Source of the DNA: Myxococcales bacterium
GTDB taxonomy: Bacteria > Myxococcota_A > UBA9160 > JALSIO01
Assembly (NCBI GenBank): GCA_026989995.1
Contig: JALSIO010000468.1
Coordinates: forward strand, 1 to 16,694
Length of the DNA stretch: 16,694 bases
Direction: 5' to 3'
Below, in pieces: positions 1 through 16,694 of the stretch; the stretch's first letter is position 1; the number at the start of each line of letters is the position of its first letter. The position numbers and the translations under genes were made by a program. The notes below the pieces were generated by a model, which worked only from the letters and a program-made list of their open reading frames with translations, searched no databases and was not told where the DNA came from.

Positions 1-1981
<1,981 letters not shown>

Positions 1982-2025
1982 GGTGGCGCGTATGTACGGC
2001 ATCCCGCCGCGGGGCGCCAGCGTGG

Positions 2026-2343
2026 CTACGGGCCGCGGGGCGCATCCGCGGCGCCGCGCGCGGCCCCGCCGCCCCGCGCGCCGGCCGCCTCCGGGGGAAT
2101 CCGCAGCCGCTGCCCCGGAAAGATCACCGCCGGATCCGCGATCTGGTCCCGGTTGGCGCGGTAGAGCTCGGGCCAGCGATGCGGATCCCCGAGCGCATCC
2201 GCGGCGATGCGCCACAGCGTGTCACCCGGTCGCACCACGTGGACCCGCTCCGCCTCGGCACCGGTGCCCGAAGCCGGGCCGGCGAACGCGGCGATCCCGA
2301 GCGCCAGGGCGGCCACCACGCGAACGAGCCCCCTCCCCCTCAC
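2026..2343 (-). CDS. Small secreted LysM-domain protein
   Basis: A 105-residue protein with an N-terminal signal peptide (basic MRGRGLVR, hydrophobic core [14 protein letters not shown]) and one LysM domain at about residues 33-83. The domain begins [14 protein letters not shown] and ends with the [14 protein letters not shown] motif. The tail after residue 84 is Gly/Ala/Arg-rich and probably disordered. LysM domains bind N-acetylglucosamine in peptidoglycan, so a periplasmic cell-wall-associated role is likely, but no catalytic domain is present. The [12 protein letters not shown] stretch resembles LysM domains of YgaU/Kbp type. The GTG start at 2343 overlaps the aspS stop as GTGA, which suggests translational coupling. 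A later GTG at 2319 lies behind an AGGGGGAGGGGG tract but would remove the basic part of the signal peptide. The gene sits between two housekeeping genes with no obvious functional link. Confidence 0.82.
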
Positions 2344-4148
2344 GGGCGTTCCCGCCGGGGCGCCAGGGCGAGGCCGAGCTCCTCGAGCTGCGCCGGCTCC
2401 ACCGGGGAGGGGGCCCGCAGCAGGAGGTCCTGCCCGCGACTCGTCTTGGGGAAGGCGATCACGTCCCGCAGGCTGGTCGCGCCGGCGAGCACCATCACGA
2501 AGCGATCGTAGCCGAAGGCGAAGCCGCCGTGCGGCGGGGCGCCGGCATCGAGGGCCTCGAGGAGGAAGCCGAAGCGCTCGTCCATCTCCTCGGGCCGGTA
2601 GCCCATGATCTCGAGGATCTTCCGCTGGAGGTCGCTGCGGTGGTTGCGGAGGCTCCCGGAGCCGAGCTCGAGGCCGTCCATCACCACGTCGTAGTGGGTG
2701 GAGCGGACCCGCTCCGGGTCGACGTCGAGCAGATCGAGGTCTTCCTCCACCGGTGCCACGAAGGGCATGTGCATGTAGGTCAGCCGGCCTTCGTCGTCGC
2801 GCTCGAAGAGCGGGAAGTCCACCACGAAGAAGACGTCGTGCTCCCGGCCGTCGGTGCGCCCGAGGCGCTCGCCGAGGTCGCTGCGCAGCCGGGCCAGGAT
2901 GGCGTTGGCGCGTGCCGCCTGGTCCGCCTGGAAGAAGACCACCATGCCGGGCCGCGCCCCCACGGCGGCGGCCACCGCGGCGCGCTCCTCCTCCGAGAAG
3001 AACTTCACGATGGGCGACTGCCAGCTCCCGTCGGCCATCACGCGGATCCAGGCCAGGCCCCGTCCGCCGAGCTCCTTGCGCACGAAGCGCTCGAGGCGGT
3101 CGATCTCGCCCCGGGAGAGCTCCTCCGCGTCCGGGATGGGGAGGCACTTGACGATCCCGCCGCTCTCCACCACCTGTCGGAAGGCGCGGAAGCCGCTCTC
3201 GCGAAAGATCTCCGTCAGGTCGCGGAGCTCGAGGGCGATGCGCCGGTCTGGCTTGTCGGTGCCGTAGCGGGCCATCACGTCCGGGTAGGAGAGCCGCGGG
3301 AAGGGCCGGGGCAGCTCGATCCCGGCCGCCTCGAGGCAGCCCCGGGCGGTCACCTCCTCGAGCACCTCGAGCACGTCGTCCACCCCGGCGAAGGACATCT
3401 CGAGGTCGACCTGGGTGAACTCCGGCTGCCGGTCCGCCCGCAGGTCCTCGTCGCGAAAGCAACGGACGATCTGGAAGTAGCGCTCGAAACCCGCGGCCAT
3501 GAGCAGCTGTTTCATGAGCTGCGGCGACTGCGGAAGCGCGTAGAAGCTCCCGGGCTGCAGCCGGCTCGGCACCAGGAAGTCGCGGGCGCCCTCCGGCGTC
3601 GAGCGCGCGAGGTACGGGGTCTCGATCTCGATGAAGCCGAGCTCGGAGAGGGTGCTTCGGACGGACTGGACGAGGCGGTGGCGGATCGTGAGCGCCCGCT
3701 GCAGCGGAGGCCGGCGCAGGTCGTGGACCCGGTGCCGGAGCCGCACGCTCTCGTCCACGCCCGTTTCCTCCTCGATGGGGAAGGGCGGCGGGGTGGCGGT
3801 ATTCAGGATCCGGAGCTCGTGGACGAAGACCTCGAGCTCCCCGGTGGCGAGCGCGGGGTTGACGGTGTCCTCGGAGCGGCGCCGCACCTCCCCCCGCACC
3901 GCGATCACGTACTCGCTCCGGAGGTGGTGGGCGCGCTCGTGGCAGGCACCGGAGGTGTCGGGCTCGAAGACGATCTGGACCAGGCCGGTCCGGTCGCGCA
4001 GGTCGACGAAGATGACGCCGCCGTGGTCGCGACGGCGGTGGACCCAACCGGCCAGCGTCACCTCCCGGCCGAGGAGTCCGGGCTCCACCTCGCCGCATCC
4101 GTGGCTGCGCCGGAGCGATCCGAGCGAGTCGAGGGTCAGCGCCTGCAT
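2340..4148 (-). CDS. aspS: Aspartyl-tRNA synthetase (bacterial type, possibly non-discriminating)
   Basis: Charges tRNA-Asp with aspartate in the cytoplasm. The 602 residues show the bacterial class IIb layout: an N-terminal OB-fold anticodon-binding domain (about 1-120), the catalytic core, a GAD insertion (about 300-430) and the core C-terminus. Motif 2 is FRDEDLRADRQPEFTQVD (231-248). Motif 3 is GGFAFGYDRFVMVL (541-554) with its Arg549, followed by RDVIAFPKT. The adenylate-site element ALPQSPQLMKQLLM is intact. In the anticodon domain the motif reads RRRDHGG, with His42 where E. coli has Leu30. His here is typical of non-discriminating enzymes that also load tRNA-Asn, as in Pseudomonas aeruginosa. 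The ATG has a strong GGAGGCGGAGGG leader. The stop overlaps the LysM gene start. A candidate promoter lies about 120 bases upstream. Confidence 0.97.
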   Translation of the reverse strand: MQALTLDSLGSLRRSHGCGEVEPGLLGREVTLAGWVHRRRDHGGVIFVDLRDRTGLVQIVFEPDTSGACHERAHHLRSEYVIAVRGEVRRRSEDTVNPALATGELEVFVHELRILNTATPPPFPIEEETGVDESVRLRHRVHDLRRPPLQRALTIRHRLVQSVRSTLSELGFIEIETPYLARSTPEGARDFLVPSRLQPGSFYALPQSPQLMKQLLMAAGFERYFQIVRCFRDEDLRADRQPEFTQVDLEMSFAGVDDVLEVLEEVTARGCLEAAGIELPRPFPRLSYPDVMARYGTDKPDRRIALELRDLTEIFRESGFRAFRQVVESGGIVKCLPIPDAEELSRGEIDRLERFVRKELGGRGLAWIRVMADGSWQSPIVKFFSEEERAAVAAAVGARPGMVVFFQADQAARANAILARLRSDLGERLGRTDGREHDVFFVVDFPLFERDDEGRLTYMHMPFVAPVEEDLDLLDVDPERVRSTHYDVVMDGLELGSGSLRNHRSDLQRKILEIMGYRPEEMDERFGFLLEALDAGAPPHGGFAFGYDRFVMVLAGATSLRDVIAFPKTSRGQDLLLRAPSPVEPAQLEELGLALAPRRERP

Positions 4149-4261
4149 CCCTCCGCCTCCGCGGGATGGGGGATCCCCCCGCGGGCCACCGGTGGCGGAC
4201 CACCACCCGGCCCGGGCCTCCCGAGGAACCGCGAGCTCCCGGCGCCCCCGAGGGAGGCGAT

Positions 4262-4290
4262 GGTTACCCCACCTCGCCGCGCGCTGTCAA
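4262..4290 (-). promoter_or_regulatory. Candidate sigma70-type promoter upstream of aspS
   Basis: A perfect TTGACA hexamer (plus-strand tgtcaa, 4285-4290) stands out in GC-rich surroundings. Sixteen bases later is GGTAAC (4263-4268), or at 17 bases GTAACC, a weak match to a -10 box. The -35 shares bases with the TGA stop of the upstream cyclase gene, and the element lies about 115-140 bases before the aspS ATG in an otherwise gene-free spacer. The -10 match is poor (three of six), so the hexamer could be chance. Confidence 0.35.
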
Positions 4291-5699
4291 ACGGACTCCC
4301 CGGCGGCGCCGCGAAGCTCCGCCGCGGTGGAGACCCGGTTCCGGCCGAGGGACTTCGACCGGTACATGGCCTTGTCCGCGAGGTCGAGCAGGGCCTCGGC
4401 GTCGTCCCCGTGCTCGGGGTAGCAGGCCACCCCCACGCTCACCGTGAGCCGCAGCGGGGTGCCCCGCTCGCCCTCGAAGGTGTGCTCCTCCACCGCCCGG
4501 CGGATGCGCTCGGCCACCGTCCGACCGGCCTCGAGATCGGTGTCCACGAGCAGCACGGTGAACTCGTCCCCGCCGTAGCGGGCCACCGTGTCCACCTGCC
4601 GCACGCAGCGCTGGAGCACCTGGCCGAGCTGCCGGAGGGCGCGGGATCCGACCAGGTGTCCGTGCCGGTCGTTCACGAGCTTGAAGCGGTCGAGATCGAG
4701 AAAGACCACGGCGAGGTGCCCCCCGTAGCGCTCGGCGCGCTGCACCTCGCGGACCACGGCGTCGAGCAGGTAGCGGGCATTGAACAGCTCCGTGACGTCG
4801 TCGATGTAGGCCCGTTCCTGCGCCCGGGCGTACCGCTCCGCGTTCTCGAGGGAGAGGCCGGCGTGTCCGGCGACGATGCGCGCCCGTTCGAGCTCGAGCT
4901 CGCCGAAGGGGCGTCCGTCCTCGAAGACGAAGAGGACGCCGCGCTCCTGCTCGCGTCCGCGCAGGGGCACGGCCAGCAGGCGCACCCCCTCGATGCCCAC
5001 CTCGGCGAGGAGCTCGTGGAGGGGGCCGCAGGAGACGACCTCGAGCTCCTGCCACGTCTCGAGGTCGAGGGGCTTGCCGTGCAGCCACCGCTCGTGGAGC
5101 GGCCGGCACTCGCCCTCCTGGAGCCCCCGGAAGACCACGCCCTCGCCGTGCAGGGCCTCATCCCGGTGGAAGCAGGCGATGCCGCGTCGCCGGCCGAGCG
5201 TCTGCAGGAGCAGGTCGAGGGCCACCGCGAAGACCTCTCCCGGCTCGAGGCACGGGGTCAGCGCCCGGCACGCCTCCACGGTCTCGAGCGCCTCGCGCAG
5301 GCGGAGGTTGTCGGCGAGGAGGTCGCGGCGGGCCAGGGTGCGCTCCACCACGAGGGCGAGCTCCTCCGGCCGCACCGGCTTGCAGAGGTAGTCCGAGGCC
5401 CCCATCCGGAGTGCCTCCACGGCGCTGTCGATGGAGGCGTGGGCGGTGACGAGCACGAACTCGGCATGCGGATGCTCCCGGCGCATCCGGACGAGCAGGT
5501 CGAGGCCCGAGAGGCCGGGCATGGTCAGGTCGGAGAGGACGAGGTCGGCCGGCTCCCGCGAGAGGGCCGCCAGCGCCTGCTCGCCGTCCGCGCAGCACTC
5601 GACCCGCGCGAGGTCGGCCAGCGCCTCACGGGCCAGCTCCCGATCCAGGCGGTTGTCATCCACCACCAGGACCCGGGGCTTCCTCGATCCGTGGACCAT
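4287..5699 (-). CDS. Response regulator diguanylate cyclase (REC-GAF-GGDEF)
   Basis: Predicted to make cyclic di-GMP from two GTP under control of a phosphorelay. Of 470 residues, about 8-125 form a receiver domain with the acidic pair Asp14-Asp15, phospho-acceptor Asp57 (LVLSDLTMPG), Thr85 and Lys107 (CKPV). About 150-300 form a degenerate GAF-like sensor region, and about 305-460 a GGDEF domain. The signature RYGGDEF (GGDEF at 376-380) is intact, so activity is expected. An RQVD motif at 367-370, five residues before GGDEF, matches the RxxD inhibitory site for product feedback. The C-terminal DKAMYRSKSLGRNRV is typical. No partner histidine kinase is encoded in the window. It lies 129 bases after the YCF48-like gene and could share its transcript. 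The ATG at 5699 has only a modest GGGGGAAG leader. Confidence 0.93.
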   Translation of the reverse strand: MVHGSRKPRVLVVDDNRLDRELAREALADLARVECCADGEQALAALSREPADLVLSDLTMPGLSGLDLLVRMRREHPHAEFVLVTAHASIDSAVEALRMGASDYLCKPVRPEELALVVERTLARRDLLADNLRLREALETVEACRALTPCLEPGEVFAVALDLLLQTLGRRRGIACFHRDEALHGEGVVFRGLQEGECRPLHERWLHGKPLDLETWQELEVVSCGPLHELLAEVGIEGVRLLAVPLRGREQERGVLFVFEDGRPFGELELERARIVAGHAGLSLENAERYARAQERAYIDDVTELFNARYLLDAVVREVQRAERYGGHLAVVFLDLDRFKLVNDRHGHLVGSRALRQLGQVLQRCVRQVDTVARYGGDEFTVLLVDTDLEAGRTVAERIRRAVEEHTFEGERGTPLRLTVSVGVACYPEHGDDAEALLDLADKAMYRSKSLGRNRVSTAAELRGAAGESV

Positions 5700-5776
5700 G
5701 GGACTCGGTCTTCCCCCTCGAGCAGGTGATCGGTGGGGTCTTCGGCCCGGGAAAGCCCGCCCTTGAGCCCGCCCAC

Positions 5777-5821
5777 CGGGAGAAGCGGGAGAAGCGGGAC
5801 AACCGGGAGAAGGGGGAGAAG
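5777..5821. repeat. Five-unit tandem repeat of 9 bp
   Basis: Five consecutive 9-bp units with plus-strand consensus CGGGAGAAG: two exact copies, CGGGACAAC, an exact copy, then GGGGAGAAG. They start eight bases past the stop codon of the YCF48-like gene, in the 129-base spacer before the cyclase gene. In the minus-strand transcript the array is a pyrimidine-rich CTTCTCCCG tract. Slipped-strand expansion is the likely origin. I see no known family. Confidence 0.85.
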
Positions 5822-5828
5822 CCCGGAG

Positions 5829-7319
5829 TCAGAACGAGGCGAGCGCCTCGCCCTCCCGACGGGGCGGGAGCACGCGCTCCCAGTGCACGCCCCGGTCGTC
5901 GGTCCGCAGGACCATCCCGCGCTGCCCCACGATGACCCCGCGCTCGTCCCCGGGGGAAAATCCGATGTCGCGCATGAAGGTGAAGATCGGAGGGAAGCCC
6001 CCGCCGGGGCCCTGCCAGCTCTGCCCGCGGTCCGTGCTGACCTGGACATAGCCCTTCTCGCCGACCCCGATGATGCGGTCCCCGGCGCGCTCGATGGCGA
6101 AGAGCGCCTGCTTGCGCCCGGTGTTGCGGTACTCCCAGGTGCGGCCGCCGTCGGCGCTGTACAGCACCACCCCGCCGAGGCCGGCGATGAAGCCCTCGTC
6201 GTCGTTCTCGAAGCGGACGGTGAAGAGGTACGGGTTCTGGGACACCCGCACCAGGACTCCGGGAAACTCCGCGGTGCGGCCGCGCAGGTACCGCTCGAGG
6301 AAGTCCGGGTCGTCCTCGATGAAGTCCTCCCAGTCCCAGGGAGGCGAGCCGCGCATGCGCAGCCGGTCGGAAAGGATGCCGGCCTCCTCGAGGGCGGCCC
6401 GGACCTCCTGCGCCCGGGCCTCGAGGATCTCGAAGAGCTCGCTCGGATCCTCGCGGTTCCGCCCGAACTGCTGCACCTCCCGGGCGCTCGCCACCGGCTC
6501 GATCTCGACGTTCAGGTGCTCCTGGGGCGCGATCGCCGCGGCGAAACCACGCAGGCGTTCCCGGTCCTCGTCGGAGATCGAGAGCACGTTGTAGGGCATG
6601 CGGATGGGGTCGAATTTCTCGCCGCCGGTGATCTCGGCGCGCTGCCAGGTATGCCCGCGGTTCTCGGAGAAGAAGATGTAGCCGAACTCGCCGATGATCC
6701 AGCACCGCGTGCCCGGCGCGCGGGCGCAGTCCACATCGTTGAGCGTCACGTCCTCGAAGACCGGCTCCCCACGCCGCACCCGGTCCTGGTCCACCGGAGC
6801 GAGCCACACGAACTGCGGGTGGGTCTCGTCGATGGTGAGCGAGCGGTCCTGCCAGGAGATGCCGCCGTTGTCGGTGAAGATCCGCGTCCCCCACTCTCCC
6901 ACGACCCAGGCCGTGTTGGCATCGATGGCCTGCACCGCGAAGAGATTCACGCCCTCGGCGATCTTGGGGTTGTCCTGGGCCTTCCAGGTCGCGCCCCCGT
7001 CCTCCGTGCGGAGGATGGTGCCCATCTGGCCCACGGCCCAGCCGCGCTGCGCATCGGCCATGGAGACGCCGTAGATCAGCCGCTTGGTCCCCGTGTCCCC
7101 CTGCCGCCAGGTCGTCCCGCCGTCGTGGCTGTAGTAGATCGCCCCCCAGTACCCCCCCGCGACGATGTGGTCCGGGTCCGGCATGGAGACCGTGTAGAGA
7201 TCGTCGTAGAGCAGGATCTCGCCTTCGCCGCCGCGGGGGCTGAAGTGGATGTCGTGGCACGCCAGGCTCGGGGCGACGACGAGCGCGAGGAGCGCCAGGA
7301 GACGGCACCAGGGGGACAT
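5829..7319 (-). CDS. Secreted YCF48-like beta-propeller with seven Asp-box motifs
   Basis: A 496-residue exported protein. The signal peptide (MSPWCRLLALLALVVAPSLA) ends in SLAC, so Cys21 could be lipidated, although Ser at -3 makes the lipobox imperfect. The rest carries seven Asp-box motifs of the S/T-x-D/N-x-G-x-x-W kind at about residues 64-71, 105-112, 149-156, 218-225, 388-395, 428-435 and 473-480, the number expected for a seven-bladed propeller. Between motifs four and five is an insertion of about 140 residues with a charged, probably helical stretch. YCF48 (HCF136) helps assemble photosystem II in phototrophs; relatives in non-phototrophs have no settled function and are often encoded beside DUF1329 and RND exporter genes. 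The DUF1329 gene is the upstream neighbour here. The ATG follows AGGAG (7327-7331) at seven bases. Confidence 0.85.
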   Translation of the reverse strand: MSPWCRLLALLALVVAPSLACHDIHFSPRGGEGEILLYDDLYTVSMPDPDHIVAGGYWGAIYYSHDGGTTWRQGDTGTKRLIYGVSMADAQRGWAVGQMGTILRTEDGGATWKAQDNPKIAEGVNLFAVQAIDANTAWVVGEWGTRIFTDNGGISWQDRSLTIDETHPQFVWLAPVDQDRVRRGEPVFEDVTLNDVDCARAPGTRCWIIGEFGYIFFSENRGHTWQRAEITGGEKFDPIRMPYNVLSISDEDRERLRGFAAAIAPQEHLNVEIEPVASAREVQQFGRNREDPSELFEILEARAQEVRAALEEAGILSDRLRMRGSPPWDWEDFIEDDPDFLERYLRGRTAEFPGVLVRVSQNPYLFTVRFENDDEGFIAGLGGVVLYSADGGRTWEYRNTGRKQALFAIERAGDRIIGVGEKGYVQVSTDRGQSWQGPGGGFPPIFTFMRDIGFSPGDERGVIVGQRGMVLRTDDRGVHWERVLPPRREGEALASF

Positions 7320-7649
7320 CGAATCACTCCTATCCGGGGCGCGAGGCGCAGAGCGCGCCGGATACTACCACCTTTGCACCAGCTTTCCGCAGCCCGCGCG
7401 GGCCGCCCGGCCCGGCTGCGCGGGCGGCGATCGGCGCCCGGGCGCCCTCCGCCGGACACCCGAGCGGAGGAGCCCTGGGCGGCCGAGCTCCCGAAAACCC
7501 TCGGGCCGGGGCCCGGCCACGCTCCCGAAGGCCCCGGAACCGGGTCGGGCCGCCCCCAAGGAGCGTCCGCCCCGCCCGCGCCGGGCCGGGGTCCGGGGGC
7601 GCCCCGGCGGGGCGCCCCCTTCTTCGGGGGGTGGTCGGCGGGCGGGCGG
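7320..7649. other. Spacer between the DUF1329 and YCF48-like genes
   Basis: This 330-base stretch has no convincing gene on either strand. It is extremely GC-rich at its upper end, where a perfect 11-bp hairpin lies (listed separately). Around 7510-7526 is the palindromic GGCCGGGGCCCGGCC. Near the YCF48-like gene the minus strand reads GGTGGTAGTATCC, where TAGTAT could be a -10 box, but no acceptable -35 element lies 16-18 bases before it. The good ribosome site AGGAG is at 7327-7331. The spacing and hairpin suggest that the YCF48-like gene may be transcribed separately from DUF1329. Confidence 0.6.
7595..7619. terminator. Perfect 11-bp GC hairpin after the DUF1329 gene
   Basis: The arms GGGGGCGCCCC (7595-7605) and GGGGCGCCCCC (7609-7619) are exact reverse complements around a three-base loop. 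The hairpin begins 30 bases past the DUF1329 stop. In the minus-strand transcript it is not followed by a U-run, so it may be a non-canonical terminator, a 3'-end stabiliser or an attenuator. On the plus strand it is followed by TTCTTC, but no plus-strand gene needs it. Confidence 0.5.
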
Positions 7650-8969
7650 CTAGCGGCCCTTGGTGAGGCGGCCGATGTCGATGTATCGCCGCACCCGGCC
7701 CTTGCTCTTGAACGGCACCCCGGAGTTGTCCCAGAACTCGATCCGGTTGCCCGTCCCCGTCTGCACGTTCACGATCGTGTCCGAGACGATCTTGTTGTCC
7801 CGCGGCTCCGGAACCCCCTCCCACCCGGGGTAGTAGTCCGGCTCGTTCGACGCATCCTCGCTCCACCGCTTGTTGTGCCAGATGATCTTCCACAGCTCCT
7901 CCTTCTGGTCGTAGGCGAAGCTGTAAAGCGCGTTCAGCGTCTGCTTGTCGATGTAGATGTCCTTGTGGTGGTACGGGTGGTCCGCGTTCTTCGGCGTCAT
8001 CCGAACCTTCCACACCTTCCGGAGCTCCCACCGGTCGTCCGCGTACGAAAGCCCGTACGGACCGAAGTTGTGATCTCGGGTGTAGGGGTAGGCCCGCACC
8101 TTCGTGTTCATCGGCGCCAGCATCTCGTACTCCCCCAGGCACTCCCACTCGTACTGCGGAGGAATCCCCGCAAAACTCCGCAGGTCGTCGAAGGTGAAGT
8201 CCGTCCCCGAAACCGAGTCCGTCCGCTGCGCCGTCGAAATCCGGCGCACCCGGCGGAGCGTCGGAACGTACACCCACGTGTCGTCGTTCTTCGCCTCCGA
8301 CGGCGGACGGTCCGCGCTCTTGTACCGGTAGGTCATCAGCATGATGCCCCGTGCGTCGAACGGCGCATCCACCTCCACCCCGAAGGCGAACTTCCGCTTC
8401 TCCCCGCGGAACATGTCCCCACCCTGCTTCTCCAGGTACTTCGGCTCCACCCGCTTCGAAAGCCAGATCGTCTTCGACGTCCCCTCGTAGTACAGCGGAA
8501 GCTCCTCACCCCGGTCCCAGTAGCTGTAGTAGTAGTGCGTCTTCGAACCGTCCCCCTCCCACTGGTAGTCGAAGTCCCAGATGATCTTCGCACCCGCCTG
8601 CGGATCCCCGAGACAGTCGATCTCCTCCGGAGGGAAGGGATAGCCCGCCGTGTGACCCTCGAGACTGTTCTCCGGACCGATCTTCGACTGCCCCCGGAAC
8701 TTCTCCGTCGCCGCCAAAAACGGCTTCGCCGGCGAGTAGTCGTAGTACGCCGGACCGATCTCGAGCTGCATCCCCTCGTAGAAGAAGAAGTCCCGGTTCG
8801 CCCAGAACTCCGGCGGGAGATACGGCTTGAGCGACTCGATCTCGTCGTACGTGATGATGTCCCCCTCCTTGAAGGGCGGTCCCACCGCCCCCGTGTCCTC
8901 CTGCGACCACGCGGAAAACGACACGAAGACGAACGAAAGGGCCAGCAGAACGGGCGCGACTCGGTGCAT
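7650..8969 (-). CDS. DUF1329 family secreted protein
   Basis: A 439-residue exported protein matching the DUF1329 family, whose members have a LolA/LolB-like fold and unknown function, possibly lipid or lipoprotein handling in the cell envelope. The signal peptide is MHRVAPVLLALSFVFVSFSAWSQ. The mature protein is rich in Tyr and Trp, with family-like stretches DEIESLKPYLPPEFW, WDFDYQWEGDGS, DTWVYVPTLRRVRR, DDLRSFAGIPPQYEW, and HHKDIYIDKQTL followed by a C-terminal tail rich in aromatic and charged residues. I chose the ATG at 8969 because the signal peptide begins there; the frame is open 19 codons further to 9026, but that part is proline-rich and would spoil the signal. GGAG lies 11 bases before the ATG, rather far. 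The YCF48-like gene follows after 330 bases, a pairing seen in other proteobacteria. Confidence 0.85.
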   Translation of the reverse strand: MHRVAPVLLALSFVFVSFSAWSQEDTGAVGPPFKEGDIITYDEIESLKPYLPPEFWANRDFFFYEGMQLEIGPAYYDYSPAKPFLAATEKFRGQSKIGPENSLEGHTAGYPFPPEEIDCLGDPQAGAKIIWDFDYQWEGDGSKTHYYYSYWDRGEELPLYYEGTSKTIWLSKRVEPKYLEKQGGDMFRGEKRKFAFGVEVDAPFDARGIMLMTYRYKSADRPPSEAKNDDTWVYVPTLRRVRRISTAQRTDSVSGTDFTFDDLRSFAGIPPQYEWECLGEYEMLAPMNTKVRAYPYTRDHNFGPYGLSYADDRWELRKVWKVRMTPKNADHPYHHKDIYIDKQTLNALYSFAYDQKEELWKIIWHNKRWSEDASNEPDYYPGWEGVPEPRDNKIVSDTIVNVQTGTGNRIEFWDNSGVPFKSKGRVRRYIDIGRLTKGR

Positions 8970-9223
8970 GGCGTGAAGATCTCCGGGCTCCGGCGGAGCC
9001 GAGGGGTTCGGGTTTGCAGGAACCAAACATAGCGCGGGTGCCGGATTCGCGACCCCGGAGGGCCGTCGGATCCGCGTGCCCCCGGAGCGCGGCGCCCGGC
9101 GGGCGCACGGCGCGGTGGCCTTCGGAGTCTCCCGAAGAGGCCTGACGGGGCATCAGGCCGGCATGGGAGCGACTCCCCGCCAGCGCACCCGACCGGTGCT
9201 CCGGTGCCGGGTCCGAGCGCGGC
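8970..9223. other. Spacer upstream of the DUF1329 gene with inverted repeats
   Basis: There is no gene here. In the minus-strand sense the part nearest the DUF1329 start holds TATGTT (plus 9026-9031), a fair -10 candidate without a good -35. Overlapping it is GTTTG-7-CAAAC (9012-9028), an operator-like inverted repeat. Further away, just past the VOC gene, lie two overlapping hairpins (listed separately). Confidence 0.4.
9117..9159. promoter_or_regulatory. Two overlapping, mutually exclusive hairpins
   Basis: Hairpin A pairs GGCCTTCGG (9117-9125) with CCGAA and GGCC (9132-9142, two-base bulge). Hairpin B pairs GGCCTGA (9139-9145) with TCAGGCC (9153-9159) around a seven-base loop. Both need GGCC at 9139-9142, so only one can form at a time. 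They lie 65-107 bases past the VOC stop and about 150 bases before the DUF1329 gene. No U-run follows, so a simple intrinsic terminator is unlikely; an attenuator or a chance feature of GC-rich DNA is possible. Confidence 0.35.
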
Positions 9224-9787: not shown

Positions 9788-10555
9788 TCAGCCCGTGCCG
9801 TCGCCCTCCGCGCCGGAGCGGCCCACCGGGGACGCGTTCGGGAGATCGAAGGACACCCGGCAACGCACCCCGGAAGGCAGGGCGCCCCCCGGGTTCGGAA
9901 GCTCGAGCCGGACCCGGATCGTGCCGCTCGCCGCGTCCACCACCGGATCCACCCGGACCACCTCGGCCTCGACCTCCCGTTCCGGGGCGAGCTCGGGTCG
10001 CACCCGGCCGCGCATGCCCTCGCGGATCCGGCCGAACCAGGCGACGGGCACGATCACCTCCACATCGAGGGGATCGATCTGCGCGATCTCCACGATGGGC
10101 TCGTCCCGCACGAACTCGCCCTCGGAGGCGTGGCGTTCCACCACGATCCCGTCGAGCGGGCTGCGGACGGTCCGGAGGGCGAGCTGCTCCCGGGCCTCCC
10201 GCTCCTCGAAGCGTGCGAGCAACGCCTCGGTCTCGATCTCGTCCTTCTCGTGGATGGAGATGAGCTTCTTCGCGTAGAGCTCCTCGTTGCGCTTCACCTT
10301 GCGCTCGGCGAACTCGCGCCGGGCCCGGGCGAGCTCCCACGCAGCGCGTTCCCGCCCCGAGACGAGCCGGGCCACCACCTGCCCCCTGCGCACCGGATCC
10401 CCGCGCTCCACCGAAACCGACTCGAGCAGCCCGGGCACGGCGCTGCTGAGCCCCACCCTTTTGTGGGGCTCGAGGAGGCACTCGAAGATCTCCTCGGCGC
10501 CTGCCGACGCCGCGAGCAGGAGAGCCACCATCCCCGCGACCACCGCGTGCCGCAT
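9788..10555 (-). CDS. Small periplasmic adaptor (HlyD/RND membrane-fusion family)
   Basis: A 255-residue protein with signal peptide MRHAVVAGMVALLLAASAGA, cleaved probably after AGA. The mature part follows the membrane-fusion layout: the first biotinyl-lipoyl half (SSAVPGLLESVSVERGDPVRRGQVVARL, about 37-65), a short charged coiled-coil hairpin (about 66-125), the second lipoyl half (LRTVRSPLDGIVVERHASEGEFV, about 126-150), and a beta-barrel domain to about 235. It is shorter than typical AcrA/HlyD adaptors because the hairpin is short and the membrane-proximal domain is minimal. It should work in the periplasm as a link between an inner-membrane transporter and an outer-membrane channel, but neither is encoded next to it. 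The ATG has a GGAGGGGAGGC leader. An imperfect hairpin (10569-10594) lies just upstream. It probably belongs functionally with the M50/HlyD cluster across the 740-base gap. Confidence 0.87.
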   Translation of the reverse strand: MRHAVVAGMVALLLAASAGAEEIFECLLEPHKRVGLSSAVPGLLESVSVERGDPVRRGQVVARLVSGRERAAWELARARREFAERKVKRNEELYAKKLISIHEKDEIETEALLARFEEREAREQLALRTVRSPLDGIVVERHASEGEFVRDEPIVEIAQIDPLDVEVIVPVAWFGRIREGMRGRVRPELAPEREVEAEVVRVDPVVDAASGTIRVRLELPNPGGALPSGVRCRVSFDLPNASPVGRSGAEGDGTG

Positions 10556-11295
10556 GCCTCCCCTCCGCGCCGGGCGCCCCGTCCGGGCACCGGCAGCACG
10601 AGCTCCGGGGATCCCGAAAGGCCCTATCGGCCGAGCCGGAGGCGTCCTTCAGCCACACCCTCTTCGCTCCCTCGAAGGCGGATGCGACCCCCGAGCAGGT
10701 CGCGGGCCCGGCCGGACGGAACGGCCCGAAGGCGATCTCCGGCCATGCCCACCCGTCCCGTGGCCCCGGGAGCCGGCGCGTGGCCTCGGCATCGGGTTGG
10801 CCCTCGAAGGGCGCGTGCGAAGATCCGCACGAGGGCTTCGCCGACCTGCGTGGGAGCACGCAGGGCACAGCCGAACGGGCCCGTTCCTGCGGCCCCCACG
10901 AGCAGGGGGCCCGCACCCGCCCGCCGCCGGGCGGTCCGGAAGAAGACCTCCGGCAGCGAAGCCCGGCCCCGGGGAGCCAGGGTCGGCAGGCGGGCGGCGA
11001 AGCGGGCCATGAAGGCGGCGCGCCGAAGGTCGCTTCGCAACCGGTCGGCGGGCGAAAACGATCGGCTCCCTGCGAGATCCCCCGGCACCCCGTGACACTA
11101 CCGGAACACGCCGGCGATGGCGGCCGCGCGGACGGCACCGGGCCCCTCGGCGCTCCCTCGGTAAGCGAACCCCGACGGATCGGCTCAGGGAAGCGCGTCG
11201 ACGAGCTGTGCAGATCCCACAGCCAGCGGCCGGAGCCGACCCGCCGGCGGGCCACGAGCTCCGCAGCGCTTCGATCCGAAGCGCTGCGCCTCCCC
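10556..11295. other. 740-base gap with clustered inverted repeats, possibly a decayed gene
   Basis: No confident gene on either strand. On the minus strand an open frame at 10624-11088 would give 154 residues with no recognisable domain. Its middle (about 10840-11040) has GC-rich third positions as real genes here do, then the bias seems to pass to another minus-strand frame towards 10640, which would fit a frameshifted remnant, though chance is equally possible. Several inverted repeats cluster at 10818-10931: CGTGCG/CGCACG, CCTGCGTG/CACGCAGG (10845-10864), palindrome GAACGGGCCCGTTC (10873-10886), GGCCCCC/GGGGGCC (10891-10911) and CCGCCC/GGGCGG (10917-10931). The part from 11100 to 11295 holds nothing I can identify. 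Confidence 0.45.
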
Positions 11296-12705
11296 TCATG
11301 GCGGGGGACCGGCGAATGCGAGGCTTCGCGCCAGGCGGGCTTCGGCCCGGGCCGCGGCGCGCCGGCGCGCCGCCTCGAGCCGCGCGGAGCGGGCCAGGCT
11401 CCGCCGCAGGAGCGCGCCCGCGACGTGACGGCCGGCGGAGGAAGCGTGCCACCGGCCGAGCCGGGCGAGCAGCGCGCCGGGCAGCACGGGGGAGGCCGTC
11501 CCGCAGAGCTCGGAGAGCCTCGCGAGGCGGGTCAGCGATCCGGCGCCTGCGAGTGCTCCGCGGACCCGCGAGTCGAGATGGGGGGGGCCTCCCGCGCCGA
11601 CCACGAGCGCCCGGGGCGCCGCCCCCCGCGCCCGGAGCCGCCGGAGCACACCCGGAAGCTCGGGGGCCGGCACGACGAGGGGGCCCCGGGCGCGGAGCTC
11701 CTCGAGCCCGCCCAAGGGGTCCGCGAGGGCCGGCGCCACGGCGATCACCGCCGGGCCTGCACCGCCCTCCGCACACCACCGATCCACCCACGACGGCGCG
11801 GCATCGTCGGCCACCACTTCGAGGTGCCACGGGGCACCGGGAGGCGCAGCGGGCGCGATCCGCGTGGGGAGCCCGAGCTCCTGAAGAAGCTCCCCCCGGA
11901 CGGCGCGGGGCGCGTCCGTAAAGCCCGCGAGGCCCGCCCGGGCCGCGAGGAGGGCGCCGAGGCGCTCCCGCCCCTGCACGCCGAGCGCCCCGTCCGCGCG
12001 CCGGGTCGGCAGGACCACCCGGCTGCAGGCCTCGTCGAGCAGGGCGCGGTCGGCGTCGAGGAGAAGGGTCCGGGACGGGGCGGCGGGAACCCTTCGCCCG
12101 GGCTCCCGGAAACGGAGCGCCTCGCGCCCGAGCCGGCCCCGGTGGGAGGCGCGATCCGCACGCTCCTCGAGGTCGCGGAGGGCGGCCTCCCGGAGCGTCG
12201 TGACCCGCACCCGGAGCCCCTCCGCGCCGAGCGCGGCCATGGCACCCCCCACCACCTCCTCCGCGGCCGTCGCCTCCTCCTCGTCGGCCGCGAGCACGTC
12301 GACGGCCTCCCCGGCCAGCGCCGCGGCACAGGCCGCTAGGGTGGAAGCGACGAGGCGCTCGTGGTGGCCCGCCGGCCCGACGAGCCCACCAGCGAGGAGA
12401 TCGGCGGCGAGCACCAGGGCGCGGGAGGCCTCGAGCCCCGGCCGGTCGGGGGCCACGAGCCGCGCGAGGGCGGCCAGCGCGGGTTCCCACACCGGCTCCG
12501 GCCCCACGCGGAGCGAGCGCGCGAGGGCCGGCACGGCCGGCTCGGCGGGAACTTCGCTGAGGAGCGCCTCCCACCGGCCGAGGGCCGCAGCGGAGGTCCG
12601 CGGCGCCGGTGCCCGCGAGCGGACCCACCGCGCGAGCCGGGCGAGGTTCCCCGCTTCGCCCGGACGCCGCCCGGCCGGAGCTCCCTCGGCCCGCCACGGT
12701 TCCAT
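11296..12705 (-). CDS. Diverged SecA-like protein lacking nucleotide-binding motifs
   Basis: A 469-residue Ala/Arg-rich protein with no signal peptide. I find a collinear, faint match to the SecA motor. ASRALVLAADLLAGGLV (93-109) lines up with SecA DVQLIGGLVL; GHHERLVASTLAACAAALAG (113-132) with GEGKTLVATLPAYLNALTG; VDVLAADEEEATAAEE (135-150) with VHVVTVNDYLAKRDAE; RLGREALRFR (191-200) with NEFGFDYLRD; LLLDADRALLDEACSRVVL (214-232) with the IVDEVDSILIDEARTPLII region; and LAGFTDAPRA with LSGMTGTA. Walker A GxGKT is replaced and the Walker B acidic pair is disturbed, so ATP hydrolysis is not expected. The C-terminal basic helix resembles the end of SecA-like proteins found beside M50/HlyD genes. 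It begins six bases after the M50 gene. The fold assignment is inference from motif order. Confidence 0.6.
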   Translation of the reverse strand: MEPWRAEGAPAGRRPGEAGNLARLARWVRSRAPAPRTSAAALGRWEALLSEVPAEPAVPALARSLRVGPEPVWEPALAALARLVAPDRPGLEASRALVLAADLLAGGLVGPAGHHERLVASTLAACAAALAGEAVDVLAADEEEATAAEEVVGGAMAALGAEGLRVRVTTLREAALRDLEERADRASHRGRLGREALRFREPGRRVPAAPSRTLLLDADRALLDEACSRVVLPTRRADGALGVQGRERLGALLAARAGLAGFTDAPRAVRGELLQELGLPTRIAPAAPPGAPWHLEVVADDAAPSWVDRWCAEGGAGPAVIAVAPALADPLGGLEELRARGPLVVPAPELPGVLRRLRARGAAPRALVVGAGGPPHLDSRVRGALAGAGSLTRLARLSELCGTASPVLPGALLARLGRWHASSAGRHVAGALLRRSLARSARLEAARRRAAARAEARLARSLAFAGPPP

Positions 12706-12711
12706 CGCGCC

Positions 12712-14886
12712 TCAGATCCGGAGTCGCCGCAGGAAGGTGCGGCGCACCCCGTCCCGGAGGCGTTCCAAGAGCGGCCCCGCGCCGTGGTCGAAGCGCACGA
12801 AGACGCGCATCCCGATCCGGGGCACCTCACCGGCCTGCCCGCCCCGGTTCTCCCCGGCGGCCTCCGGCAGCACCTCGAACTCGAAGAGCCGGCGGAAGCT
12901 CCGGGCCCCGCCGCGCGCCCGCGGGTCCGGCGAGAAGGATCCGCCCCCCTCGGTCCCGAGCACCGGACTCGGGAGCTCGAAGCCCGCCTTGGGGACCTCG
13001 CGCAGGAGCCGGCCCGGGCGGGGAGCCGTGAGATGATCGGCAAAGAGCACCCACACGGCGCGCGTCTCGCCCCGGACCCGGTCGGCGACGTCCTGGCCCA
13101 CCACCACGCGGACCCGCGCCTCGTCGGCTTCCACCACGAAGCCCACCGCCTCTCCCCGAGGCAGGAAGCGGCCGGGAAGGTCCGCGTGCCCGGGCAGGAG
13201 CAGGACGCCGTCGCGCGGACTCCGGACCTCGAGCGCCTCGAGCCGTGCCCGGGCCCGGTCGAGGGACGCACGCGCACGTGCGAGCTCCTCCTCGGCGATT
13301 CGGAAGGCGGCCCGGTCCGAGGCGAGGCGCTCCATCCGCCGCGCCTCGAACTCCGCCACGCGCGCGGCGAGCCGACGCACCTCGAAGGCGAGCTCGGGGT
13401 TGGCCAGGCGGAGCACGACCTCACCCCGGAGCACCCGACTTCCCGGCTCCCCCAACACTGCCTCGACGATGCCCTCGGCGCCGGTGACCACCCGCGCGCC
13501 CTCCGGAGCGAGGACGACCCCCTCGGCCACGGTGGAGCGCGGGAGGGGCACCACGAGGAGCATCGCACCCGCCGCGAGCCCGAGCCCCGTCACCGCGAAG
13601 GCGCGCCGGCGCCGGCCCGAGAGCGCGGGATCGACCGCGAGGGTGCGAAGCCCCCGGAGCACGGGAAGAAGCGCGAAGTTCGCGACCACGAACGCCGCCA
13701 GGAGCACGCCGACCGCGAAGAAGCGACCCGCGACGAAAAGGGCGATCACGAGCACCACCGCGAAGCGGTAGAGGTACGAGGCCACGGCAAAGCCGAAGAG
13801 CCAGGGCTCCTCGCCCGGCGCGGAGGCGGGACTCTCCTCGCCGGGAACGCCCAGGATGTGCCGGCGCACCAGGTGGAGCACGTATCGGTTGGCCCGCGCG
13901 CGGAGGTTCGGGATCTCGAGGAGATCCGAGAGCAGGTAGTAGCCGTCGTAGCGCAGGAGCGGATTGGCGTTGAAGAGCACCGTGGAGACGCCGGCGATGA
14001 GCATCGCGTTCCAGAGGACCGCCCGGAGCGGGCTCGGCCGCATCTCCACCCACGCGAAGAGGCAGAAGGCGGCCACCAGCAGCTCCGTCAACACGCCGGC
14101 TGCGGCCACCAGGGCGCGGCGGCGGCGCTCCGGAAACGCGGAGGTGCCGCTCACGTCCACGTAGGGAACCGGCGTGAACACGAGGAGCATGATCCCGAGC
14201 TCGTGCACCTCGGCCCCCCACACCTTGGCCGCGACCCCGTGACCGAGCTCGTGAAGGGCCTTCACCACCGGAAAGGTGAGCCAGAGCAACAACAGGTTCT
14301 CCGCCGAGAGCACGCGGTCGGCGAGGTTCCCCGTGAGCGCCTCGAAGTGGAGGGCGACCTGTGCCGCAGCGCCGGCCATCACCGCGATCCACAGCGCCGC
14401 GCCGAGGGGCGAGAAGAGCGGGCGCGCGAAGCGGGCGATCCCTTCGAGCATCCGGTCGGGATCGAGGAGCGGAATGCGGATGGCCAGGGGGCTCCCGATC
14501 CGCTCGAAGAGTCGCCGGCGCCGCAGCGCCGCGGCGCGGGCGGCGAGCTCGTGCGGGTCCGGCTCCGCGTCCGCGACGAGGAGGTCGGCCTGGTGGAGCT
14601 GGCCGAGGAGCGCGAGGATCTCGCCCTCGGTCGGCGCATCGTCACCGAGCCGCTCGGCCGCCGCGGCGCGCAGCTCCTCCACGGTCCTCTGCCCGTCGAG
14701 GAGGGCGAGCACCAGCCGCGCCGCCGGCGACAGCCGGTGGTAGCGGCCGGTGACCGGATCCTCGAGCACATAGCTGAGCTCTCCCCGGTAGCGGTGGCGC
14801 CGGATGCGGGCGTGGGAGCGCAGGCGCGGGCGCAGGCCCGCCACCCGGTACCACGCGGGGCTCGCGGTGCCGTCTACGGAAGCCAC
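12712..14886 (-). CDS. PqqD-like / M50 zinc protease / HlyD-adaptor fusion membrane protein
   Basis: A 724-residue multi-domain protein. About 35-105 form a PqqD-like winged-helix region (YVLEDPVTGRYHRLSPAA to LHQADLLV), the fold used for leader-peptide recognition in several peptide pathways. About 160-410 form a polytopic M50 (site-2 type) protease core with HELGH at 212-216 and the third zinc ligand Asp314 in NPLLRYDG, so it looks catalytically intact. A last membrane segment (about 430-447) leads to an HlyD-like periplasmic half with two lipoyl motifs (about 455-495 and 548-585) around a coiled coil, then a beta-barrel part. Such proteins are annotated as putative peptide zinc metalloproteases. 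I chose GTG at 14886, 13 bases inside the end of the preceding gene, because homology begins soon after; no ATG is available. The much longer open frame upstream is a shadow of the GAF-HlyD gene. Confidence 0.88.
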   Translation of the reverse strand: MASVDGTASPAWYRVAGLRPRLRSHARIRRHRYRGELSYVLEDPVTGRYHRLSPAARLVLALLDGQRTVEELRAAAAERLGDDAPTEGEILALLGQLHQADLLVADAEPDPHELAARAAALRRRRLFERIGSPLAIRIPLLDPDRMLEGIARFARPLFSPLGAALWIAVMAGAAAQVALHFEALTGNLADRVLSAENLLLLWLTFPVVKALHELGHGVAAKVWGAEVHELGIMLLVFTPVPYVDVSGTSAFPERRRRALVAAAGVLTELLVAAFCLFAWVEMRPSPLRAVLWNAMLIAGVSTVLFNANPLLRYDGYYLLSDLLEIPNLRARANRYVLHLVRRHILGVPGEESPASAPGEEPWLFGFAVASYLYRFAVVLVIALFVAGRFFAVGVLLAAFVVANFALLPVLRGLRTLAVDPALSGRRRRAFAVTGLGLAAGAMLLVVPLPRSTVAEGVVLAPEGARVVTGAEGIVEAVLGEPGSRVLRGEVVLRLANPELAFEVRRLAARVAEFEARRMERLASDRAAFRIAEEELARARASLDRARARLEALEVRSPRDGVLLLPGHADLPGRFLPRGEAVGFVVEADEARVRVVVGQDVADRVRGETRAVWVLFADHLTAPRPGRLLREVPKAGFELPSPVLGTEGGGSFSPDPRARGGARSFRRLFEFEVLPEAAGENRGGQAGEVPRIGMRVFVRFDHGAGPLLERLRDGVRRTFLRRLRI

Positions 14887-16694
14887 CGGAAGGCCTGGAT
14901 GCGGAGCCACTGTCGCGGTCCGCGGGTGAGCAGATCGAGGAGGCTCCGACGGCCGGCGCCGATGCGGCCGAGCCCCTCCATCCCGGGGCGCAGCCGCGGG
15001 TGGAGCCGAAGCAGCTCCGCCTCCACCCGGAAGGTGTTCCGGCCCTCCGCCGCCCTCGAAACCGCACTCACCCGCGTGACCCGGAAGGGAAGAGGCTCCG
15101 CCGGAAGGGCCTCGAGAACCACCTCGCCCTCCTGCCCCACCGCCACCTCGGCGACATCCCGCTCGTCCACCTGCAGGGCGAGTCGGAACCGGCCCGCCGG
15201 GGCGAGCTCGAAGAGGGTCTCGCCCCGACGGACCGCGGCCCCGAGGGATTGGGAGAGATCGCCCTCCACGATGAGTCCGGCCAGGGGCGCGCGGATGCGC
15301 GTACGCTCGAGCTGCTGCTGTACCAGGGCGAGCTGCGCCTCGGTCTGGTCGACACGCGCCCGCAGGATCTGGACCTCGGCGCGGTCCCCCGTCGCCATGG
15401 CGTGGTCGAGCTCCCGGAGCTGCTGGAGGCGCTGGCTCTCCCACTTGATGCGCTCGAGCTCGAGATCGCGGGCGTCGAGCTCGAGGAGCACCTCCCCCTC
15501 TTCCACCACGTCGCCGGCGCGGTGCGGGGCACTCGCGATGTAGGCGTCGAAGGGGGCGACCAGGCTGCGCCGGATGGCGCCCTCGAGGGTCGCGTCCGCG
15601 GCGAGGCGGAGCTCTGCCGGGAGCAGGGCGAGAGCGGCCAGCAGAAGCGCGGTGCCGCCGAGGCCGACCTTCCACCCCAGATGGCCCGGACCGAGCACGC
15701 GCGCGAAGCCGGCGCGGGCCGCGTCGAGGGCAGCCCGGTGGACTGCGCGCTCCGCCTGCTGCAGGAGCGCGAGGATCGGGCCCAGGAAGGCCGCCGCCGA
15801 CTCGAGGAGGGCGACCTCCTCCGCCTCGAAGCGGCGGTCGGGCGGTGCCTCTGCGGTCAGAGCCCCCACGGCGCGCCCGCCGTGCCGCAGGGGCACCGTC
15901 AGGACCCCGCCGCCGGCGAGCCGCGCGAGAGCACGGTGGGCGTCGAGGACGGCGGGCGGTAACGCGCGGCCTTCGGGCTCGGGCACCGCGAGGCAGAGAT
16001 CCTGATCGAGCGCCTCCTCCATCGCCGCCGCCACGGCGCGGAGGCGCTGCATGGCGGCCCCGGGCGCCGCGGTGTGGGAGAGGGCGGCGATGTCGACCCG
16101 GCCGCGCCGGAGAACACCCACCGAAGCACGCTCGGCGCCGAGCGCCCGCTCGATCCGACCGGCCACCGCCCGGCAGGCCGCCTCGAATCCCCCGGCATCG
16201 AGGGCCTCCGCGACGAGATCGAGGGCGAAGGCGAGGCGTCCTTCCGCACCGCCGGCTGCGGCGTCGGGGGCCAGCCAGGCGGCCCCCCACTGCAGGCCGC
16301 GCAGGACCTCTTCAAGGGCGTCACCCTCCACCGCCACGGCGACGGCACCCACCTGCCGACCCCGCGGAGCGAGGGGCAGGGCCACGGTCGCGCGCGCGGA
16401 CCCGGCCCCGGGGCGGGCGAGCGGAGCGCCGGCGGCGAGGCATGCCCGGGCCGCGGCTTCGAGCGCCGCGAGCTCCGCAGCCTCCCCCCCGTCGGGGAAG
16501 CGCGCGACCACCTCGGGGTCGCCCCCGGCTCCATCCCGGAAGGCCACCAGCCCGGAGACCGCGCCCGACAGCTGTGCGAGCTGGAGCGGAAGCCAGGCGC
16601 GGGCACGCTCGGCGGGAGTCCTGGCCTCCCGGAGTGCACGCCACCGGTCGGGATCGAGGAGCGCCGGTGCCGGCGCCTCAGTTCCTCGGGGTCG
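14874..16694 (-). CDS. GAF-domain HlyD-type membrane-fusion protein (5' end outside window)
   Basis: 606 residues are visible; no ATG, GTG or TTG occurs in frame before a GTG at 16547, and clearly family-like sequence (ARAWLPLQLAQLSGAVSGLV) precedes that GTG, so the true start lies beyond base 16694. In visible numbering, about 35-145 form a diverged sensor-like domain and about 153-310 a GAF domain. About 341-360 is a single membrane helix (LGGTALLLAALALLP), and from about 362 an HlyD adaptor follows, with lipoyl halves (SLVAPFDAYIASAPHRAGDVVEEGE and RTRIRAPLAGLIVEGDLSQS), a coiled coil between them and a C-terminal barrel. The topology is a cytoplasmic sensor fused to a periplasmic adaptor. 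It overlaps the M50 gene by 13 bases, so the two are translated from one message. GAF ligand pockets are too diverged to name a ligand. Confidence 0.87.
   Translation of the reverse strand, partial: RPRGTEAPAPALLDPDRWRALREARTPAERARAWLPLQLAQLSGAVSGLVAFRDGAGGDPEVVARFPDGGEAAELAALEAAARACLAAGAPLARPGAGSARATVALPLAPRGRQVGAVAVAVEGDALEEVLRGLQWGAAWLAPDAAAGGAEGRLAFALDLVAEALDAGGFEAACRAVAGRIERALGAERASVGVLRRGRVDIAALSHTAAPGAAMQRLRAVAAAMEEALDQDLCLAVPEPEGRALPPAVLDAHRALARLAGGGVLTVPLRHGGRAVGALTAEAPPDRRFEAEEVALLESAAAFLGPILALLQQAERAVHRAALDAARAGFARVLGPGHLGWKVGLGGTALLLAALALLPAELRLAADATLEGAIRRSLVAPFDAYIASAPHRAGDVVEEGEVLLELDARDLELERIKWESQRLQQLRELDHAMATGDRAEVQILRARVDQTEAQLALVQQQLERTRIRAPLAGLIVEGDLSQSLGAAVRRGETLFELAPAGRFRLALQVDERDVAEVAVGQEGEVVLEALPAEPLPFRVTRVSAVSRAAEGRNTFRVEAELLRLHPRLRPGMEGLGRIGAGRRSLLDLLTRGPRQWLRIQAFRWLP

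Follow-up and report, generated by a model that had tools for sequence, protein, structure and literature searches.

The window analysed here, one whole contig of 16,694 bases (JALSIO010000468.1) from a Myxococcales genome (G000; 3.83 Mb in 824 contigs, 90% complete), carries on its minus strand a block of, in this order, a GAF-HlyD adaptor gene, a gene for a PqqD/RRE-M50-HlyD fusion, an open reading frame (ORF) of 469 codons in the slot that a SecA-like gene occupies in relatives, and a second HlyD adaptor gene (Pfam, NCBIfam and ORF scans). Judged from sequence comparison, this block rather probably represents one of the copies of an export apparatus dedicated to giant proteins with the LEPR-XLL motif, whose export itself we infer. 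It looks like an apparently undescribed bacterial machine that combines a leader-binding membrane protease with periplasmic adaptors, and no description of such a system was found in the open full-text PMC literature.

Linkage of the block to LEPR-XLL giants

LEPR-XLL is defined by the NCBIfam model NF012209 (LEPR-8K), which covers 24 N-terminal positions. On alphaproteobacterial plasmids, where we considered 13 records with an M50 fusion covering at least 80% of the query (14 clusters, two of them in one record; the second M50 place in NZ_CP049813.1 was left out of the counts), a LEPR-XLL match above the cut-off was present in all 13 records, and all 14 clusters opened featured a LEPR-XLL ORF upstream on the same strand. 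The frames of these plasmid giants extend from about 4,000 to 13,000 codons, the longest counting 12,957. Environmental strains that carry the locus include Methylosinus sp. C49 and Thalassospira marina. In 11 clusters the LEPR-XLL frame ends 1.6–3.1 kb before the M50 gene, in two it crosses the start of the record, and in NZ_CP140808.1 it stops 9 kb short of the M50 gene, possibly owing to a frame break.

A similar association emerged within the phylum. Relatives of the M50 fusion were found in 22 of 282 phylum genomes at E ≤ 1e-20 and in 18 at E ≤ 1e-60 (at the latter threshold, 20 of 79 genomes of the order), and LEPR-XLL matches in 12 of the 282, of which 11 belong to the 18 M50 genomes. 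Fisher's test gave 2e-14 for this co-occurrence, and 1.2e-6 within the genome's own, order and class groups (59 genomes), omitting the four of the 22 genomes whose M50 matches are weaker (G069, G113, G201 and G109; E 1e-41 to 1e-22). Ten of the 15 LEPR-XLL matches in the phylum lie on the same contig as an M50 match, another (G143:C50) adjoins HlyD and the C-terminus of a SecA, and four are located away from M50 (G215:C230, G050:C56, G181:C625 and G000:C28).

A six-frame search with hidden Markov models (HMMs) mapped 33 clusters in the phylum, and 19 of them are accompanied by a giant ORF: 17 were retrieved by filter and two by inspection, namely L056, where a LEPR-XLL frame of 824 codons extends as far as the contig does, and L060, which contains the terminal part of an RTX ORF. 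RTX repeats occur in some of the giants near clusters, and LamG/PKD-type giants were also seen. The closest relative of the window, L009 from a Myxococcota metagenome-assembled genome, features all four genes in the same order (identities of 53% for the M50 fusion and 46% for GAF-HlyD) and, immediately before GAF-HlyD, a LEPR-XLL/RTX ORF with a frame of 7967 residues and the LEPR-XLL motif at its N-terminus. The first-pass remark that similar neighbourhoods exist in other bacteria and often lie near very large proteins is borne out, and the block is conserved.

The genome of the window harbors a second copy of the block, L060 (contig C773, positions 1–8967), consisting of the RTX-repeat ORF end, a PilZ gene, GAF-HlyD, M50 and HlyD, without SecA. 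In addition, the 6.6-kb contig C28 (L114) contains at positions 6538–6618 a LEPR-XLL N-terminus running off its end, which may form the beginning of the giant that one of this genome's two clusters lacks. Since the C773 cluster is preceded by the RTX end and C28 offers a LEPR-XLL start, the window fits a giant gene located just past base 16694.

Domain architecture of the protease fusion and the adaptors

The M50 fusion, whose GTG start at 14886 was set from the 724-residue length of its database entry, matches PqqD with 36.2 bits (7.5e-9; Pfam cut-off 23.4) and M50 with 26.6 bits (4.5e-6), slightly below the cut-off of 27.2, and both catalytic motifs, HELGH and NANPLLRYDG, are present. The window therefore holds a PqqD/RRE domain joined to an M50 domain with HExxH and DG motifs, as in RRE-site-2 proteases. 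The daptide metalloprotease model NF041824 scores 169.5 bits (1.2e-49) against a curated cut-off of 300, and a daptide-type assignment is not reached by this score. In the predicted structure (mean predicted local distance difference test, pLDDT, of 82), the N-terminal domain was matched to the leader-bound RRE of TbiB1, tied with other winged-helix domains, the membrane core to RseP and the adaptor part to MacA; the comparison (VIA-align) covers Foldseek's best chains only, with the adaptor part taking up most rows. According to this model, leader-binding, site-2-protease and adaptor folds are united in one predicted chain. The possible peptide-recognition domain of the first-pass annotation is present as PqqD, although its RRE leader-binding nature and the LEPR-XLL signal had both been missed.

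The GAF-HlyD protein matches GAF (2.6e-8), HlyD_3 (2.7e-16) and HlyD_D23 (1.5e-11) in Pfam and reaches 609 bits with the family HMM, while the second adaptor scores 131 bits with RND_mfp (cut-off 94.9) and 326 bits with its family HMM. The window consequently contains periplasmic adaptors of the HlyD/RND type known from type I systems.

The SecA-like component in relatives

In 25 of the 33 phylum clusters, the third slot holds an HMM-detected SecA. The remaining ones are the window, three clusters that lack the gene in the downstream DNA present (L060, L062 and L123, the last from a 68% complete genome and with only parts of M50 and GAF-HlyD) and four that end after M50 (L049, L063, L068 and L126). 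Together with 13 of 14 plasmid clusters, these counts uphold the pairing of SecA-like and M50 genes and do not refute the first-pass proposal of an export system.

The SecA-like proteins of three relatives scanned matched SecA_DEAD, SecA_PP_bind and P-loop_SecA. Of the 25 phylum copies detected by HMM, all but L009 (24 copies) conserve Walker A (TGEGKT) and the DEAD box, as do all 13 plasmid copies, one of which is split across two frames; a strict motif VI pattern was matched in only part of the SecA-like copies. The chain stops at the end of nucleotide-binding domain 2 (NBD2), and its alignment to the solved SecA of Bacillus subtilis ends at residue 605, whereas 23 of 31 housekeeping SecA frames continue for at least 199–240 residues past the HMM match (lower bounds, as the loci are cut there). 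Phylogenetically, the SecA-like proteins of the system are set apart from housekeeping SecA with a support of 0.97, and their clade includes four database proteins of unknown context (P0003–P0006). L009 is placed next to these four on a branch of 2.85 (median 0.40); its SecA-like protein comprises 576 residues, scores 127 bits with the family HMM and no longer contains Walker A or the DEAD box.

Where the motifs are kept, the SecA-like protein is likelier a motor than a mere chaperone, because most relatives retain Walker A and DEAD box. This speaks against the chaperone or docking role assigned in the first-pass annotation; in the window, however, both motifs are gone, and clusters lacking the gene exist. 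The motor is optional, because the second cluster of this genome and a Thalassospira plasmid cluster have no SecA-like gene in the block. In public records, the gene appears under labels such as prepilin peptidase, DEAD/DEAH box helicase, translocase, SecA or hypothetical protein, and this mixed annotation may have hidden the system.

An alternative option is a maturation or anchoring complex, in which the ordinary Sec route takes the giant across the inner membrane and the M50 protein and adaptors trim or tether its N-terminus and guide it to the outer membrane. The existence of SecA-less clusters would fit this scenario, as would the single SecA_DEAD match of this 90% complete genome, which is the housekeeping gene and consistent with a general Sec path. 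However, the 18 of 30 LEPR-XLL N-termini that were read contain basic residues but lack an extended hydrophobic segment (hydropathy over 15 residues at most 1.52, with guessed starts), and a dedicated SecA carrying Walker A and DEAD box is retained in the majority of clusters; we therefore regard such a complex as unlikely.

The ORF in the SecA slot of the window

The first-pass annotation had called the 469-codon ORF of the window SecA-like. Its slot indeed holds SecA with intact motifs in most relatives, but the ORF itself (11296–12705) showed no Pfam or NCBIfam match, and a motif search found neither Walker A nor DEAD box; one loose motif VI match at residue 187 is in the wrong place. With the family SecA HMM it scores 4.2 bits, a value that 2 of 1000 whole shuffles and 1 of 1000 local ones also attain, and with L009 included in the HMM 3.8 bits vs. 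3.6 bits for reversed L009. Its identity to L009 (31.8%) gives no signal above shuffled sequence (31.0% for 20 shuffles, maximum 33.3%), and the global alignment of the two scores 116, with shuffle means of 74–76 and bests of 300 shuffles of 126 and 135. The sole PDB sequence match is a colinear one to SecA2 (E 0.069). An AlphaFold model, built on an alignment that contained true SecA rows, reached a pLDDT of 41, and the first four Foldseek rows for it are SecA or SecA2 at E 0.095–0.53, none of them significant and hence not counted as proof. Alanine, arginine, glycine and proline make up 0.552 of the ORF vs. 0.345–0.452 of 14 intact SecA-like copies, and at this composition 469 codons stay free of stops with a chance of about 0.10, so that the openness of the frame is no evidence of coding.

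The position in the slot, three colinear weak segments and the SecA2 match in the PDB nevertheless favor a SecA in decay. The ORF is probably a decayed SecA-like gene without a working motor, whose homology is probable but not proven, and may represent a pseudogene or a non-motor remnant; the label "SecA-like" is thus probably valid by descent and not by function. Side by side, the SecA-like genes of the window (11296–12705) and L009 (12160–13890) appear to be in stepwise decay of a translocase ATPase.

Decay could also have seized the whole system of the window, the other genes being relics or serving another pump. The richness of the SecA slot in the four residues and its lack of identity to L009 above shuffled sequence would agree with a dying system. 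Yet the M50 catalytic motifs are present, the M50, GAF-HlyD and HlyD proteins score well with the family HMMs, L009 combines the same loss of SecA motifs with open frames for the other genes and the giant, and SecA-less clusters recur, which renders this explanation improbable.

Outer membrane channels and ABC transporters

No ABC or RND transporter was detected among the 10 scanned window proteins, in line with the first-pass description of a protease and adaptor set without an ABC pump. The surroundings of the clusters were covered by a survey of 79 neighbour genes (76 of 92 picks plus three of L060; first 25 of 121 families), some of which may be spurious, as they come from simple ORF picking in high-GC DNA. 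ABC genes are not among the families represented at least twice in this survey, which lends no support to a nearby transporter explaining all adaptors. TolC, suggested in the first-pass annotation as a gene to look for past the contig end along with a large repeat-containing or adhesin gene, is named in two of 10 annotated plasmid clusters (Methylosinus and Thalassospira) after the last adaptor, the former also matching OEP at 1.4e-54 and the latter by annotation; the giants lie upstream in the plasmids and L009. OEP genes are lacking in the window, and two are located elsewhere in the genome.

Ordinary type I secretion, with the adaptors serving an ABC exporter encoded elsewhere, would account for the HlyD-type adaptors, the RTX repeats in some giants and the TolC partners. 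Against it stand the missing recurrence of ABC genes in the survey and the annotation of the ABC genes near L129, L133 and L136 as peptide or sugar uptake systems. The type I ABC models TIGR01842 and TIGR03375 also stayed below cut-off in the 90% complete genome, a weak test without positive control, since they passed in none of the 14 control genomes and the search was limited to these two type I families. Taken together, we consider ordinary type I secretion very unlikely.

Proposed mechanism and its weighing

In the proposed export machine, the giant would be recognised in the cytosol by the RRE domain, which would bind its basic N-terminus (LEPRxLLSAD), and the M50 site-2 protease would cut it at the membrane. 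Together with a TolC channel that would here be encoded elsewhere, the three adaptor modules could form a periplasmic trunk gated by the GAF domain. Where present, the SecA-like ATPase would feed the chain, while the two clusters of this genome would have to work without it, e.g., by means of the housekeeping SecA or another energy source. It is about an even bet that this constitutes a secretion system of its own kind, in which an RRE-guided, adaptor-fused protease selects LEPR-XLL giants for an adaptor-TolC trunk and a truncated SecA powers most lineages, with another source where the motor died, as here.

Several observations weigh against a dedicated export machine for giants. One genome (G215) has LEPR-XLL but lacks an M50 protein of this kind, a LEPR-XLL match is absent from 7 of the 18 M50 genomes, and the examined DNA of 14 of the 33 phylum clusters contains no giant, including L046, L047, L048 and L123, which are flanked on both sides (L041, L043, L125 and L126 have a long flank on one side). 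The window ends inside GAF-HlyD and holds no giant, the LEPR-XLL start being at another contig end (C28). The Thalassospira HlyD lacks a GAF match, and TolC, present in just two of 10 annotated plasmid clusters, is not recurrent among the 79 phylum neighbours. The RRE match is not unique in view of the tie with other winged-helix domains, and leader binding by this domain is a prediction. Finally, export of the giants is a prediction from sequence comparison.

Gene layout and neighbourhood

The coordinates (Table 1) confirm the four-gene order and the near-touching genes reported in the first pass: GAF-HlyD and the M50 fusion overlap by 13 nt, the 469-codon ORF begins 6 nt past the M50 stop, and the HlyD gene follows 740 nt beyond its end.

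Table 1. Features of the block in the window.
Feature	Coordinates	Strand	Remark
GAF-HlyD adaptor	16694..14874	-	5' end cut by contig end
GAF-HlyD sub-parts	GAF ~16184-15780; hydrophobic segment ~15680-15624; HlyD part ~15548-14946	-	Pfam and hydropathy
PqqD/RRE-M50 site-2 protease-HlyD fusion	14886..12712	-	724 residues
RRE-type winged-helix fold of M50 fusion (predicted)	14572..14829	-	residues 20-105
Site-2 protease core with HELGH and NANPLLRYDG	13915..14310	-	residues 193-324
HlyD/MacA-type adaptor part of M50 fusion	12754..13545	-	residues 448-711
ORF of the SecA slot, 469 codons	12705..11296	-	slot of SecA-like gene in relatives
Second HlyD/RND-type adaptor	10555..9788	-	N-terminal hydrophobic segment; RND_mfp and family HMM

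Elsewhere in the window, a DUF1329 gene adjoins a Ycf48/BNR gene (5829–9026). Such pairs frequently accompany RND-type exporters; no RND gene was seen in the window. A response regulator-GAF-GGDEF gene is located at 4287–5699, and in relatives the genes most often neighbouring the block are likewise of the two-component and GGDEF types. Between M50 and the SecA-like gene, a SapC-family gene is inserted in Pseudosulfitobacter (L141, 16923–17744) and an unannotated gap of similar size in Ensifer/Sinorhizobium (L134 and L135). In L009, a tryptophan-halogenase-like gene follows the block (14677–16185).

Implications and comparison with known systems

The exit route of LEPR-XLL giants, open in the literature searched, is now linked to one conserved gene set. 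This link yields three testable claims, i.e., that an RRE reads LEPR-XLL, that a site-2 protease acts in an exporter, and that a SecA was taken into the system, truncated and subsequently lost again. The apparently decaying SecA-like genes of the window and L009 moreover offer an opportunity to follow the functional loss of a translocase ATPase.

The block resembles type I secretion (HlyB-HlyD-TolC) in its HlyD adaptors, in the TolC of two clusters and in the giant RTX or LamG/PKD-type candidate substrates, and C39-ABC exporters in that a leader-cutting peptidase is coupled to a transport apparatus, as outlined in the excerpted text of PMC8277102. Unlike both, it comprises no ABC transporter and in most copies a SecA-derived ATPase, and unlike peptidase ABC exporters, it uses as peptidase an intramembrane protease of the M50 family with PqqD/RRE, fused to an adaptor. 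On sequence grounds, it is similar to type I secretion, with no ABC partner found among the proteins, neighbours and two type I models covered (a weak test), and by score not a daptide system.

Like SecA and SecA2, the SecA-like proteins of relatives contain SecA_DEAD, preprotein cross-linking and P-loop domains, whereas their chain stops at the end of NBD2 and the copies of the window and L009 no longer show Walker A or the DEAD box. The linked giants match the 24-position model of LEPR-XLL domain proteins, a family described as a domain model only, with no export partner in the literature searched; in the excerpts of PMC10868602 and PMC9611531, LEPR-XLL is mentioned only in passing.

For M50 proteases, a combined role has been considered before: EpeP is thought to cleave and export, although its deletion did not abolish production (PMC10885120, in excerpt). 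A parallel in domain order is provided by daptides, for which the excerpted text of PMC10036551 describes the fusion of an RRE with a site-2 protease, next to peptides that share a conserved motif at the N-terminus. The block has in common with this protease (NF041824) the RRE/PqqD domain N-terminal to M50 and candidate substrates that are likewise conserved in an N-terminal motif; in contrast, its fusion adds an adaptor domain, and the proteins linked to it are thousands of residues long.

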